Source of the DNA: Methanosarcina mazei S-6
Lineage (GTDB): Archaea > Halobacteriota > Methanosarcinia > Methanosarcinales > Methanosarcinaceae
DNA length: 64,000 bases
Reading direction: 5' to 3'
NCBI RefSeq assembly: GCF_000970205.1
Contig: NZ_CP009512.1
Coordinates: forward strand, 3,720,001-3,784,000
The position numbers were made by a program, and so were the translations under genes. Of the stretch, positions 15,509-21,388 are shown piece by piece (positions within the stretch are counted from its first letter, which is position 1; every line of letters starts with the position of its first letter). Under the pieces are notes generated by a model, which ran no database searches, was not told where the DNA came from, and saw only the letters and a list, made by a program, of their open reading frames with translations.

Positions 15509-17431
15509 ATGCCACCAGAAAATAAAAATTCCGATCCCTTTGAGGAATTAAAGTGGAGTGACCTGCAGGACTGGGCAGGAGGGAAGGCAACTGCAAAGGG
15601 GATAAAGTACCAGGAAGAAGAGAGGGTTAAAGAGATAAAGCGAACCCCTGAAGGCAGCCTTGTAGCCCTGGTAGAAGGGACATCTGATTATTTTACGGAA
15701 ATTTTCCTGAAAGACGGGAAATTGAGTTCGGTCTGTACCTGTCCTGTGGGGCACGACTGCAAACATGGGGTTGCAGCGGTACTTGAATACCTTGAACTTG
15801 CAGAGCAGGGAGAAGAGGTTCTGATTGCTTCCGAAGAAGACCCTTTCGTTGCAAGAGCCAGACAGGAATATACCGGAGATGAAATCTCTGCCCTCGGAGA
15901 AGAAGAGTCATCAGCCAGGGCTCTCCGTGAGTACCTGCAGCGTCTGACCAGGACGGAATTGATCGAAATACTGGTGACATTTGCAGAAAAGGATACCGGG
16001 CTTGGAAAGTATCTCAAAGAAAGGCAAACTCTCTCAGCAGAAAACGTGGAAGAAATTGTAGGGGAAGTCTACTCCGAACTTGACGAGCTTCTGGAAGAAG
16101 CCGGAGATTTTGAGTATGCGGATTATGAAATGGATGTCCCTGATTTTTTAGACGTGCAGGTAGGGCTGGAAAGCCTGCTCGATTCGGGACACCCTGATGA
16201 ACTTCTTGATATCGGAAAAGAGCTGATGGACAGATACGAAAAAATTGCGGATTATGATGAAGAAGGGGAGATAGGAACAAAAATATCATTTTGCATGGAC
16301 GTGGTTTTTAAAGCTCTGACCCGTTCTTCAATTCCTGCTCACGAAAAAATGCTTTATATGCTTGAAATTGAACTCAGAGACAATTACAATATTCTTAATG
16401 AACACGGTTTCTGGGAAAAAGACTTTACTCCCGAAGAATGGAGGCGTTTTTCAGAATCCCTTAAGATCAAGCTAAAAGAAGCTGAAAAGACAGAAAATCC
16501 CCTTTATGACTCCCTCTGGCAGAGAGACTATGCTGTTGACAGGCTGGTTTATGCTCTTGAAAAATCCGGGCTCTTTGAGGAGGTAATCCCGTTATGTGAA
16601 AAAGAAGCCAAAAAAACAGGAAATTACATCCGGCTGGTAAGGGTGCTGCTTGACTCAGGGAAGAGAGAGAAAGCAGAAGAATGGATCTACAGGGGGATTA
16701 AAGAGACCAGAGAACATGAAACTGAGACTGCCCATCAGCTCTTGCAGATCCTTCTTGAGATTAAAGAAGGGGAAGGAGACTGGCTTTTTGTGTCTGCCCT
16801 TGAAACAGAAGAGTTTTTCAGGCATCCAGATATATCCAGCTATTCTAGCATGCAGGAAGGAGCAAAGAAGGCGGGAAAATGGGAAGAAGTCCGGGAGGCT
16901 GCCATCAGGTACCTGAAAAATGGAAAACTCCCAGCCAGTAAGGGTAAAAATAAAGAAAAAGCTTCGATCCTTCCCGGGGTTCTCCCGAAAACAGGGCTTC
17001 TGGAGAAGGAGTTATTAAAAAAGATCAAAACTCCTGTATTTGACCTGCTGATAAAGATAGCAATTCAGGAAGAGGACCCACAGGAAGTTATCCACTGGTA
17101 TGAGGAGCTTAAAAAAAGCGGAGAAGAATCCCAGGGATACTGGCATTCAATCTCCGAAAGCGAAATTGCAAATTCGGTGAAGGAAAAGTATCCTGAAGTT
17201 GCGCTTGAAATATGGAAAAGCCTTGCAGAAAAGCTGATTTCGGAAGCAAAAGTGGGCTCGTATGAAGAGGCGTCCGCATACATTAGAAAAATAAAAGAAA
17301 CATTCGAAGCCAGCGGAAAAAAAGAAGAATGGGAGAATTATCTCTCTGAGATAAAGGAGGCAAACAGCCGTAAAAAGAAGCTTCTTGGGATTCTGGATAC
17401 ACTTGGAGAAGACAGGATCATAAAGGTATAA
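15509..17431 (+). CDS. SWIM zinc-finger protein with TPR-like helical C-terminus
   Basis: 640 residues. A SWIM motif lies near residues 70-90: CTCPVGHDCKHG, the CxC...CxH zinc ligands. The rest is acidic and helical with repeated pairs of amphipathic helices (for example SLWQRDYAVDRLVYALEKSG and VIHWYEELKKSGEES), like TPR arrays. SWIM domains bind DNA or proteins. In bacteria and archaea, long SWIM/TPR proteins are often near SNF2 helicases, but none is here. The gene follows the FAD/Rieske gene by 51 bp but seems to have its own promoter. Function unknown. Confidence 0.85.
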   Translation: MPPENKNSDPFEELKWSDLQDWAGGKATAKGIKYQEEERVKEIKRTPEGSLVALVEGTSDYFTEIFLKDGKLSSVCTCPVGHDCKHGVAAVLEYLELAEQGEEVLIASEEDPFVARARQEYTGDEISALGEEESSARALREYLQRLTRTELIEILVTFAEKDTGLGKYLKERQTLSAENVEEIVGEVYSELDELLEEAGDFEYADYEMDVPDFLDVQVGLESLLDSGHPDELLDIGKELMDRYEKIADYDEEGEIGTKISFCMDVVFKALTRSSIPAHEKMLYMLEIELRDNYNILNEHGFWEKDFTPEEWRRFSESLKIKLKEAEKTENPLYDSLWQRDYAVDRLVYALEKSGLFEEVIPLCEKEAKKTGNYIRLVRVLLDSGKREKAEEWIYRGIKETREHETETAHQLLQILLEIKEGEGDWLFVSALETEEFFRHPDISSYSSMQEGAKKAGKWEEVREAAIRYLKNGKLPASKGKNKEKASILPGVLPKTGLLEKELLKKIKTPVFDLLIKIAIQEEDPQEVIHWYEELKKSGEESQGYWHSISESEIANSVKEKYPEVALEIWKSLAEKLISEAKVGSYEEASAYIRKIKETFEASGKKEEWENYLSEIKEANSRKKKLLGILDTLGEDRIIKV

Positions 17432-17464: not shown

Positions 17465-18510
17465 TAAAGTCAGGAATACACAGGTAAGCAGCACCATAAA
17501 CAGGTAAGCAGCACCAATGAAAATCTAAAATCCAAGCCTTCTGCATTCTCATTTTCATTAAAAATAGGAAGAAAATGAGTATTTAAATAACCGGAGATAT
17601 TTTTATTCTTCAACCGGTTTTATACTTAACTTGAATCATTCTATATACATTTTTTTACATGATTTATGTATTTCAGAATTAATTTTTATCAGCATTTGAG
17701 AGAAAAGCCAAAAGCCTTTGTAGCTATTTCCGAGTCATTTCTATTTTTTGCCTCAAAAAAACACTACGTTACGCCGTTTCAAAGAAGAGAAAAAATAATT
17801 CATACATGGCAACTGTATAAATTATCGCGCTTGTGCAGGTAAAACTGGAGCATTAAGTTTATACAGAAAACTATTAAATAATTAAGATTCATACTAATTA
17901 TCAGCAAATTTAGACAATGTTGAGATCATATAGGAAGCTTTGGGAAGAGGTAGAAGTATTAGAGATTATACTTCCCTATTTGATCTCAGGCAAATATATC
18001 AGATTATAAATAGGGAAGAGGAGTGGGGAATTTGAGGATTTTAACTAAATCCGGGTACTGGAAACCTGCCTGATCACATTTAGCGGAGTTGCAGCATCCT
18101 GTAACTGTGGATTAACGAGTATATTACCCTGTTTACCGGGAAAAATATAGAGATAATGCTCTGCAGTTTTTTACCTGAGTGAGAAGGGTGCTTTTATGGA
18201 GACAGATCAGTACATAGTGAGTACTGTAGAGATGGTCTGGATCTTTAAGAGGGATAAATCCACGTTTACCAATGCGATTTCTGCCTCCAAATAAATGTGC
18301 TGTTTTATCTGAAGATATCTCGCATAGCTGTGATTATGATCTTTTGCCGGTTGTGAACCACAATGAAGAGATCCGTCAGATCAGTGCATAAAAATTGAGA
18401 TTTCCAGAATAAAACAGATGCCTGCTATCATAGGTTTGCGTTAAAATTTCCCTTTAAAATCTGTTACCAATTGAGCAGTCAGCTCAGTAAGATGCTTGGT
18501 GGGGTTCGAG
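17465..18510. other. Long intergenic region
   Basis: There is a short direct repeat (ACAGGTAAGCAGCACCA, twice near 17480-17520) and otherwise AT-rich sequence. A 39-codon frame near 18270-18390 has no recognisable features. No gene is supported. The promoter of the exopolysaccharide operon must be near the right end. Confidence 0.4.
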
Positions 18511-19938
18511 ATGGTTAAAGAACGTATCGGAGATTTTGTAAAATTTCAAAAAACAGAAGTAATAAATCGACCGGAGACTATATTTGGAAGAAAAGAGAAG
18601 AGCGATAAAAAATTCTCTGATTCTTCCGGCAATAGCGTAAATAAATTGATACCTGTTGCCTCATTAATTCTGGCTGTATTAATCACTCTTTCAATCGGAT
18701 TATTTCTTTACGAGGGAATTAACCACTTAAATAATGGTACTCCCGGCAGTGTTACTATCCTGGAAGAACCAGAGCTTCTTGACGCACTGAGGAATGCGCA
18801 GGATAGAGGAGTTCTTCTTGCAATGCATGGATGGGCACATGAAGATTATTCAACTCTAACGCCATTGCAGATAAAAGAAAATATAGAAAAAGGAAAATAC
18901 GTCTTTGAAAAAGCCGGGATTGTTCCTGTGGCATTCATCCTTCCAGAAGAACCTATTCATGGAACAATAGATGCATCACTAAAACGGGAAATAGAGAGCA
19001 ACGGGATCCCAACAGAGTTACCTGTGCTCGAAACCGATGGAACCTACAGGAACGAATATACATGGAACTGGCGTGAAATGGAAAGTTTAGAAGATTCCCG
19101 ATACCAGGAGGCTTCTGAGCAAATAAGGGAGGATAATCCGACAACGATTCTGCTCCATGCACAGGACTGGAATCCTTATACGAAGCAGTTTATCACTGAT
19201 TACTTATCATCGACCAATGAGAGAAATGTCACCATCAGGGTAGATGATGTCGAGGTGAATACCAGACCAGAAATGGTCTCTGACATGGCCCAGTTGACCC
19301 AATACGAATCAGTTGGACAGGTTGCATTTGCAGTAATTCCTGCGGGAGCAGGAAAAGGAGACAACCCTGCTATCGGGAACATAAATATAAACAGGATTAT
19401 GGGGGTTTACTTCTGGTTCTTTATCATAACCTCATTGTTGCCACTTTCATTTTTTGCAACATGGAAATTGTTATCGAAGTGGCACAAAAATAGGAAACAA
19501 AACAGGTATTTACTTGAGGATGGCCGAGATCCAAAAGATCCAAACACGAAAGGTCCAATATTAGTCTCCGTTATTTCCCCGGCTTATAATGAAGAGAAAT
19601 CAATAGGGAAATGCCTTCAATCTATTCTTAATCAAGACTATAAGGGAAAAATGGAAGTGATCGCTGTTAATGACGGCTCCAGCGATCGAACTGCAGAGAT
19701 TATTTCAAAGTATCCTGTAAAACTTCTCGACCTTAAAGTTAACGGAGGAAAAGCAAACGCTCTTAATAAAGCTATTGAGATTGCAAAAGGAGACATTCTG
19801 ATCTTTACGGATTCAGATTCTTATATGGCACCGAATGCTGTGAGTTCTCTGGTGAAATGTCTCAATGAGAATGAAGAAGCCCAGATGGTGGCAGGAAACG
19901 TGTTTATTCATGATAACCGGGGAAAAAAGGAATCATGA
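18511..19938 (+). CDS. Exopolysaccharide synthase, N-terminal part: deacetylase-like domain plus GT2 N-half
   Basis: 475 residues from the ATG at 18511 (GGTGGGG site). One membrane helix lies near 45-70. An extracytoplasmic domain resembling DUF2334/polysaccharide deacetylases follows (AMHGWAHEDYSTLTP). A second helix is near 295-320, then the start of a cytosolic family 2 glycosyltransferase (VISPAYNEEKSIGKCLQSIL, NDGSSDRT, FTDSDSY). The frame stops in the middle of the GT2 domain. The missing part, with the ED and QxxRW motifs, is encoded in the -1 frame at 19935. The two halves together make a normal PgaC/hyaluronan-synthase-like enzyme. See the slippery site at 19923. Confidence 0.85.
   Translation: MVKERIGDFVKFQKTEVINRPETIFGRKEKSDKKFSDSSGNSVNKLIPVASLILAVLITLSIGLFLYEGINHLNNGTPGSVTILEEPELLDALRNAQDRGVLLAMHGWAHEDYSTLTPLQIKENIEKGKYVFEKAGIVPVAFILPEEPIHGTIDASLKREIESNGIPTELPVLETDGTYRNEYTWNWREMESLEDSRYQEASEQIREDNPTTILLHAQDWNPYTKQFITDYLSSTNERNVTIRVDDVEVNTRPEMVSDMAQLTQYESVGQVAFAVIPAGAGKGDNPAIGNININRIMGVYFWFFIITSLLPLSFFATWKLLSKWHKNRKQNRYLLEDGRDPKDPNTKGPILVSVISPAYNEEKSIGKCLQSILNQDYKGKMEVIAVNDGSSDRTAEIISKYPVKLLDLKVNGGKANALNKAIEIAKGDILIFTDSDSYMAPNAVSSLVKCLNENEEAQMVAGNVFIHDNRGKKES
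19923..19929 (+). promoter_or_regulatory. Slippery heptamer A AAA AAG, candidate -1 frameshift site
   Basis: In the zero frame of the upstream gene the codons read GGA AAA AAG GAA TCA TGA. The heptamer has the canonical X XXY YYZ phase. A -1 slip continues directly into the downstream frame, giving a protein of about 695 residues with an uninterrupted GT2 domain. No strong downstream hairpin is obvious. An indel in the purine run is the plain alternative. Confidence 0.5.
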
Positions 19939-20600
19939 AGTATTTCCAGATGATTGAATATCGTACCGAACAGGAGATTATCCGCCACCTTCAGGGCTTG
20001 TCAGGCAGCATCCTTGTATGCCCTGGCCCTCTCACTGCTGTCAGGCGCAAAGTGTGTGATGTAATTAGCTTCAGTAACGAGACCATAGTTGAAGATGCTG
20101 ACTTTACGATTAAGGCTCTTAAAAACTCAATTAAAATTATTCAAGAACCAGAAGCAATAGTCTACACTGACGCACCTGAGACTGTTAAAGGGTGGTATAA
20201 ACAGAGGAAGAGATGGTGGTATGGAAATCTCCAGTTATGGAGACTCCACAAAAAATGGGCAATGAAGAATCCGTGGATGATATTCAATTATTCAGGATAT
20301 ATAACAGGGATTTGTTCAATCATCCTGATCATGTCAATACCATACTTAATCCTTCAGTATGACAACATTCCAATGATACTGATGAGTGGAATCCTGTGCC
20401 TTGCATTCTCTATAATGCTGTACATTATATACATTGGCCCATTATTTGCCACAGACAAAAGATTATTACTAATGTTGATACCTTATGTATTGATCTATGC
20501 AACAATAAAAGTAGTAGTAATCAGCAGCCTTTTCCTGTGCTACCTGACAGGTAAAGGAGTAAAAGTTAAATTCGGTGCAAAGAGCTTTGTGGTGAGGTAA
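19935..20600 (+). CDS. Exopolysaccharide synthase, C-terminal part of the GT2
   Basis: 221 codons in the -1 frame, overlapping the upstream stop as ATGA. It carries the missing GT2 motifs: VEDADFTIK (catalytic Asp region) and QRKRWW (QxxRW). These are followed by three or four membrane helices (ITGICSIILIMSIPYLIL, MILMSGILCLAFSIML and LLLMLIPYVLIYATIK). On its own it is not a functional glycosyltransferase. It needs to be fused by frameshifting, or to assemble with the upstream product, or the gene is broken. Confidence 0.8.
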   Translation: MKYFQMIEYRTEQEIIRHLQGLSGSILVCPGPLTAVRRKVCDVISFSNETIVEDADFTIKALKNSIKIIQEPEAIVYTDAPETVKGWYKQRKRWWYGNLQLWRLHKKWAMKNPWMIFNYSGYITGICSIILIMSIPYLILQYDNIPMILMSGILCLAFSIMLYIIYIGPLFATDKRLLLMLIPYVLIYATIKVVVISSLFLCYLTGKGVKVKFGAKSFVVR

Positions 20601-21388
20601 TGAAAAAAGACTACAAAAAATATTTTTTAGCAGGGCCAATACCCTTAATTTTAGTTATAATTCTATTTTATTTACACCCGGTTAACGAAGGTCCTCCGCG
20701 ATCAGAATATTCGGAAGGAATATGGAATAATTGTAATTTTACAAAACCTGCTGAAGAGTGGTCTGCGGCTGCTAAGAGGTTTGGGGGAGAAAATGCAGTG
20801 ATTGATCTGGTCGTTGCCCAGGCTCATGCAAATGAGCTTACATACCTGCCATATCCTTTTGAAAAAAGTGAAAATGTTTACAGCTACAGTCAGACTGATC
20901 AGGTAGAGCCATACCTTAAAAAATTCGATGAAGATGGCTTGAAGGTGATCCTTTCAATTCAGCCTAATAATGCTGATGTAGCAGATTTGATTGACATTAT
21001 ACTTACAAGGTATGGTCATCATGAAAGCATAATAGGTGTAAATATTGATATGGAATGGAAATTGACCGGGAACCCGTGTCATGTCAGCAATGAAGAGCGT
21101 AACCTCTGGTTAAACAGGGTCCAAAAATACAATCCGGAATTTAAACTGTTTCTGACTTATTTTAAAGATTACACCTATTTCCCAGATGATGCAGAAGATG
21201 TTGTCATCCTATATGATGGAGAGAAAGCTACTCAAACAACACTCATGAGAGAATATGGAAATCTTGCGAGCCATTATACATCAGCAGGAATATATACAGG
21301 TTATTCCTCCAGCACCCCGCCAACAGCATCTCATGATAGTATCATGGCTGCAGCTCCGAATACGCAGTATATCTTGCATATAGTCTGA
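20600..21388 (+). CDS. Membrane-anchored exported protein, glycoside-hydrolase-like barrel
   Basis: 262 residues, with a start overlapping the previous stop by one base. A signal anchor (FLAGPIPLILVIILFYL) is followed by an exported domain with barrel-like strands (LKVILSIQPN, IIGVNIDMEWKLTG, FKLFLTYF, DVVILYDGEK). The acidic cluster in NIDMEW is placed like the catalytic acidic residues of GH18-like barrels. Its operon position next to a polysaccharide synthase suggests it modifies or releases the exported glycan. No specific family could be named. Confidence 0.7.
   Translation: MKKDYKKYFLAGPIPLILVIILFYLHPVNEGPPRSEYSEGIWNNCNFTKPAEEWSAAAKRFGGENAVIDLVVAQAHANELTYLPYPFEKSENVYSYSQTDQVEPYLKKFDEDGLKVILSIQPNNADVADLIDIILTRYGHHESIIGVNIDMEWKLTGNPCHVSNEERNLWLNRVQKYNPEFKLFLTYFKDYTYFPDDAEDVVILYDGEKATQTTLMREYGNLASHYTSAGIYTGYSSSTPPTASHDSIMAAAPNTQYILHIV

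Follow-up and report, generated by a model that had tools for sequence, protein, structure and literature searches.

One review counts a single reported case of -1 frameshifting in archaea, the fucA1 gene of Saccharolobus solfataricus, and its account adds frameshifts proposed for archaeal viruses and one presumed for the magnesium chelatase genes of the methanogens Methanocaldococcus and Methanococcus (PMC8211752). As summarised there, fucA1 comprises two open reading frames (ORFs) in a -1 relation with an overlap of 40 bases and the heptamer A-AAA-AAT, accompanied by a putative stem-loop, rare codons and experimental proof; the break is the same in two strains, and in the fused relatives the A run is shorter by one (PMC8211752). 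Two further classes of gene bear comparison: singleton frame transitions, which the GeneTack survey describes as likely results of indel mutation or sequencing error (PMC3711429), and phase-variable genes, in which a change in the length of a homopolymer within a coding gene truncates the protein (PMC2831843).

The window, a 64,000-nucleotide stretch of the Methanosarcina mazei S-6 genome, contains a split gene that resembles each of these in part. Like fucA1, it consists of two ORFs in a -1 relation with an A-rich heptamer, and its fused relatives have an A run differing by one (compare PMC8211752). The two differ in the heptamer (A AAA AAG here), in the overlap (four bases) and in the direction of the length difference, the fused relatives of the window gene being one base longer. 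They differ also in that the present case is known from sequence alone and that folding-energy calculations, which leave pseudoknots outside the model, revealed no stimulatory structure at 19930-20010 (z +1.41, 189 of 200 shuffles as good) or at 19935-19985 (z +0.21, 107 of 200 shuffles as good). Since relatives of fucA1 are fused too, recoding is not excluded by fused relatives on their own; conservation, structure and product are all missing from the case for it here. The likeness to a GeneTack singleton or frameshifted pseudogene, a frame break in one genome with intact relatives, is closer (PMC3711429): nothing essential differs, and the window's break merely happens to leave a slippery heptamer in phase. 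With the phase-variable genes it shares the homopolymer in a coding gene, whereas its tract is short, lies late in the gene and is not conserved in length.

Layout of the split and probable product of the gene

The features of the split gene, all on the + strand, are as follows.

18496-19938, +: upstream fragment, with a DUF2334/polysaccharide-deacetylase-like domain and the first part of a GT2 domain (Pfam)
19935-20600, +: downstream fragment in the -1 frame, with the remaining GT2 domain and the C-terminal part (Pfam)
19920-19926, +: G GGA AAA, a second heptamer of the form X XXY YYZ, in the same phase as A AAA AAG and overlapping it
19923-19928, +: run of six A (A6), read from the sequence
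19923-19929, +: A AAA AAG heptamer in the zero-frame phase of ORF 18496-19938
19935-19938, +: ATGA overlap between the upstream and downstream frames
19936-19938, +: TGA stop of ORF 18496-19938

The split can be read directly from the in-frame junction of ORF 18496-19938 (+), ...AAC CGG GGA AAA AAG GAA TCA TGA AG..., in which a six-base spacer (GAA TCA) separates A AAA AAG from the TGA. A -1 slip at the heptamer yields ...KK-G-I-M-K-Y-F-Q..., entering ORF 19935-20600, and inspection revealed a weak AAGGA-like sequence just 5' of the ATGA overlap. A preliminary description had placed A AAA AAG in zero-frame phase, with six bases between it and the upstream stop, had the frames overlap as ATGA and had the -1 frame carry the rest of the GT2 domain; the sequence, ORF 19935-20600 and the Pfam placement agree with all of this. 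The second in-phase heptamer, G GGA AAA, was absent from that description, and both heptamers have the X XXY YYZ form in zero-frame phase upstream of the stop.

In Pfam analysis the upstream ORF matched positions 1-120 of 168 of Glycos_transf_2 (PF00535), and the downstream ORF matched positions 47-195 of 198 of Glyco_trans_2_3 (PF13632). On a family model of 694 positions the upstream fragment covers positions 1-472 and the downstream fragment 468-694. The upstream fragment (18496-19938) probably also has a transmembrane stretch. The locus is one gene, whose product joins a deacetylase-like domain at the N terminus to a GT2 polysaccharide synthase.

The product was characterized further through an intact relative, L016 of genome G002, whose sequence matches GT2 structures, among them those of chondroitin and cellulose synthases. 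Its best NCBIfam match was the poly-beta-1,6-GlcNAc synthase PgaC/IcaA (TIGR03937; 153.7 bits, residues 342-621), far below the curated cut-off of 422.3 bits; unlike PgaC/IcaA, the family here is fused to an N-terminal DUF2334/deacetylase-like domain. The gene is probably exopolysaccharide-synthase-like, and PgaC/IcaA-like by this best, sub-threshold match. In all nine intact copies (L016 numbering) T433, D434, S435 and D436 are invariant upstream of the break, as are E528, D529, Q565, R568 and W569 downstream of it. We take T433-D436 to be the DxD part, E528-D529 the ED motif and Q565/R568/W569 the QxxRW motif of GT2 enzymes. As the break parts DxD from ED and QxxRW, the upstream fragment alone should not polymerise sugar.

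Relatives in Methanosarcina and the one-base difference

A profile built from nine relatives was used to search 30 genomes of the genus, one per species (E <= 1e-60), and revealed the gene in 10 of them, with 11 copies in total. Nine copies form a single open frame from model position 1-4 to 694 and come from eight genomes (G002 with two copies, and G004, G005, G008, G021, G022, G024 and G027). The window's copy is the only frameshifted one, and the remaining copy, in G026, is interrupted by an insertion; the split arrangement is thus not kept in the genus, occurring in one of 11 copies with none of the other 10 divided likewise. Among 149 sampled genomes of the order, with up to seven candidates scored per genome, eight matched at E <= 1e-80, all of the same genus. 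A search of genome contigs returned 10 loci, five of them relatives already in the set (G004, G005, G008, G021 and G022) and five distant matches of 29-41% identity, and a search of viral contigs found no relative of the gene. The proteins of the two intact copies in G002 (L004/L017 and L016/L018) are 95% identical; the L017 copy shares the gene neighbourhood of the window, and L016 is 87% identical to the window over 1061 bases and 84% over 2105.

The G026 orthologue (L026; G026:C1, about 3446440-3448330) is interrupted by an insertion of ~1.9 kb with one ORF of 532 codons; by inspection it has imperfect terminal inverted repeats, and ATAAAT is repeated at both its ends. Its site precedes the position corresponding to the window's A run by only ~25 nt, and it is, as judged from its sequence, a second, different and independent break of the same gene. 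Presence in only 10 of 30 genomes together with this independent break makes the gene look dispensable; the patchy presence and the two different breaks suggest either dispensability or changing selection, both frequent among surface-glycan genes.

Comparison at the junction showed directly that each of the eight closer intact copies has one base more than the window's copy. The ninth (L011) is fused as well, is more distant and has three extra codons at this place. Four of the nine intact copies (L016, L005, L006 and L008) have seven A (A7) as GGA AAA AAA; L007 and L010 read GGA AAA AAG CGA, L009 reads GGG AAA AAA, and L004 reads AGA AAG AAA, in which a G interrupts the run. The longest A run at the tract ranges from 3 to 7 across the relatives. 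L016 reads GGA AAA AAA GGA against GGA AAA AAG GA in the window, so that dropping one A gives the window's arrangement exactly. The indel that the preliminary description had listed as an alternative gains support from this comparison, since the orthologues have one frame and the eight closer ones, all fused, differ by a single base. That description had also proposed a search for orthologues fused without the heptamer as the observation that would speak for an indel, and seven of the nine intact copies are of this kind; the remaining two (L007 and L010) carry A AAA AAG in phase inside a gene that is nevertheless fused, where it codes for two lysines without any shift.

Deleting one A computationally from the A7 copies produced A AAA AAZ in phase in four of four, and exactly A AAA AAG in L016. 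The ATGA overlap would appear in six of the nine intact copies after a one-base loss, because its ATG A belongs to the coding sequence; this start is not fully conserved, since L007 has ATA in place of the methionine codon at which the downstream ORF would begin. Judged from these sequences, a one-base loss produced both the A AAA AAG heptamer and the ATGA overlap, and neither is a signal. A loss from an in-frame tract of the GGA AAA AAA type leaves an in-phase A AAA AAZ and a -1 relation, as it did in all four relatives, and for this reason a split gene with a canonical-looking slippery site says little for programmed frameshifting unless the split is conserved.

The heptamer is also common in the genome. 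ORFs were called mechanically in 800 kb of the window's genome; the 632 with 100 codons or more contain 100 in-phase A_AAA_AAG, the window's included, in 87 ORFs, eight of the 100 lying within 15 nt of the end of the ORF. As a signal, A AAA AAG is not beyond chance here.

Selection on the two halves was evaluated from branch changes, counted wherever the outgroups L005 and L006 are the same. For the downstream half this gave 31 synonymous and 7 nonsynonymous changes on the window branch, compared with 16 synonymous and 10 nonsynonymous on that of L004; the same count against L016 gave 30/7 for the window and 16/11 for L016, and dN/dS was 0.068 versus L004 and 0.071 versus L016. The upstream half gave 66/50 for the window and 47/44 for the other branch. 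The downstream half thus shows directly no relaxation of constraint, and no second lesion, in the form of a further stop, was found in either half. By a bound that is crude, assuming a nonsynonymous-to-synonymous opportunity of 2.7 and Poisson counts, the downstream half has been neutral for at most about a tenth of the branch. Unrelaxed constraint in the downstream half means that the loss is recent, or is an assembly error, or is masked by slippage that lacks independent support. The unrelaxed constraint and the absence of further lesions do not fit an old pseudogene: the break is recent, or the gene is no pseudogene.

Explanations for the missing base

We favour the reading that an exopolysaccharide-synthase-like gene, itself dispensable, recently acquired a frameshift that abolishes its function or represents an off state. 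We put the probability of a one-base loss without recoding or programmed switching at roughly 0.72, a figure that includes a loss present only in the assembly. A fixed recent deletion is the most likely form of this loss; assembly error and phase variation are serious alternatives. The simplest route to the removal of one base would be slippage during replication, from A7 to A6. Translation would then stop two codons past the A tract, and the truncated product would retain the deacetylase-like domain and the DxD part and lack the ED and QxxRW motifs, so that the synthase should be inactive. The loss would be very recent on its branch. Strain S-6 is called spontaneously disaggregating in a title cited by PMC12369344, and any tie between this behaviour and the broken gene is speculation. 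The case flags a Methanosarcina surface-glycan-synthase-like gene that is patchily present and broken differently in two genomes.

The strongest rival, unlikely though by no means negligible, is an assembly or sequencing error, by which the organism would have an intact gene and the consensus would have dropped one A. The missing base lies in a homopolymer, a classic spot for consensus errors, and the remainder of the gene is intact with both halves constrained. The general quality of the assembly at such runs, which argues against this rival, was calibrated with 165 comparisons of reference ORFs in two 400-kb regions of the window's genome (G000), with ORFs called mechanically: 10 and 12 ORFs shared with G024 and G026 in the region around the window, and 40 and 103 reference ORFs in a core region around rpoB. 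G000 showed three frameshift candidates in the 165 comparisons.

about 3,997,550 of G000: candidate that is transposase-like by inspection
2,898,635 of G000: candidate that is by inspection probably a spurious antisense ORF
3,062,630 of G000 (G000:C1:3061743-3063325), -: candidate resembling a cell-surface gene by inspection, its G002 counterpart being in a single frame

In the core region the candidates numbered 2 in 143 comparisons for G000, 3 in 68 for G002 and 2 in 143 for G026; around the window they numbered 1 in 22 for G000, 5 in 79 for G024 and 7 in 69 for G026, several of the last representing one multicopy gene. The window's genome thus showed no clear excess over its relatives in the same comparisons. 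By inspection of the sequences, none of the three G000 candidates lies at a run of six or more, and contraction of homopolymers is therefore no recurring source of frameshifts in the sampled regions; 241 runs of at least six lie in stretches aligning in one frame, a count that serves as a denominator only, since these stretches were chosen for being in one frame. The assembly has no general homopolymer weakness in the part sampled, and a single error is possible.

Less probable again, and still to be taken seriously, is phase variation, in which slipped-strand mispairing would switch the gene between A7 (on) and A6 (off) and the sequenced culture would have been off. A surface polysaccharide gene would be a typical target, the homopolymer lies inside a surface-glycan-synthase-like gene, there are intact relatives with A7, and a reversible and frequent 5' poly(A) change has been reported in Listeria inlA (PMC2831843). 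The tract in question is short and ordinary: the 632 ORFs contain 670 A6 runs, 189 A7 runs and 43 longer ones. It has also not been kept long across the relatives, where the longest run varies from 3 to 7, and it is situated about two thirds into the gene, away from the 5' end.

The strong constraint would equally fit a gene that still makes a full-length product by slippage. The strain may live with the loss because ribosomal or transcriptional slippage at the new A6-G tract partly restores the full-length synthase, as an incipient, accidental 'saviour' frameshift, which we regard as improbable; if true, a saviour frameshift in a methanogen would be a snapshot of recoding sites born from homopolymer deletions.

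Programmed -1 frameshifting, one of the three readings listed in the preliminary description, is highly improbable, and we found no positive support for it beyond the in-phase heptamers and the unrelaxed selection. According to this explanation, the full-length protein would arise at A AAA AAG, either by a programmed -1 shift of the ribosome or by slippage during transcription, with ORF 18496-19938 as the default product. It is consistent with A AAA AAG and G GGA AAA in phase near the stop and with a downstream half under unrelaxed constraint, and fucA1 provides an archaeal precedent at A-AAA-AAT (PMC8211752). It is opposed by the occurrence of the arrangement in one of 11 copies, nine being fused, by the automatic origin of the heptamer from a deletion and by the lack of downstream structure in the two segments folded (z +1.41 and +0.21). 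The genome has tRNA-Lys-CUU as well as tRNA-Lys-UUU, which may be a further point against it: the CUU anticodon should re-pair poorly on AAA and would weaken the -1 shift if it is the one that reads this AAG. A AAA AAG is the classic heptamer of E. coli dnaX, which breaks the rule that the last base is not G. That rule, by which the last base of the heptamer is any but G, is given in the review cited above and counts against the window's heptamer (PMC8211752). For transcriptional slippage A6 is short, since avoidance of runs in coding regions is evident at nine in many bacterial genomes, and the same source allows shorter runs for slippage in some organisms (PMC1088944). A literature search found no paper that names both transcriptional slippage and archaeal RNA polymerase.

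A split enzyme, with the two ORFs coupled in translation at ATGA and the fragments assembling, can be practically set aside: the ATGA overlap does have the weak AAGGA-like sequence just upstream, yet the overlap is inherited from the coding sequence, L007 has ATA instead of its ATG, and no other copy among the 11 found is divided this way.

Neighbouring genes

The gene that follows the split synthase is conserved.

20600-21388, +: 262-aa protein, full length when compared to its L017 homologue

The 262-aa protein is 68-79% identical to nine homologous sequences, and its homologues lie beside the synthase in five of 10 fetched neighbourhoods (L017 and L021-L024); in L021-L024 further homologous copies flank the synthase on its opposite side. 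At E <= 0.01 the protein had no match in Pfam or NCBIfam. Its predicted structure (mean pLDDT 55.4), with query-normalised TM-scores of at most 0.37 against PDB entries among the 50 matches listed, is suggestive of a barrel-type hydrolase (glycosidase-type) fold, a hint too weak to use.

Further upstream in the window, a 640-aa protein (15509-17431, +) showed a weak match to a SWIM zinc finger (17.1 bits, cut-off 19.6), and a homologue 75% identical to it lies upstream of the synthase in the L017 neighbourhood of G002.
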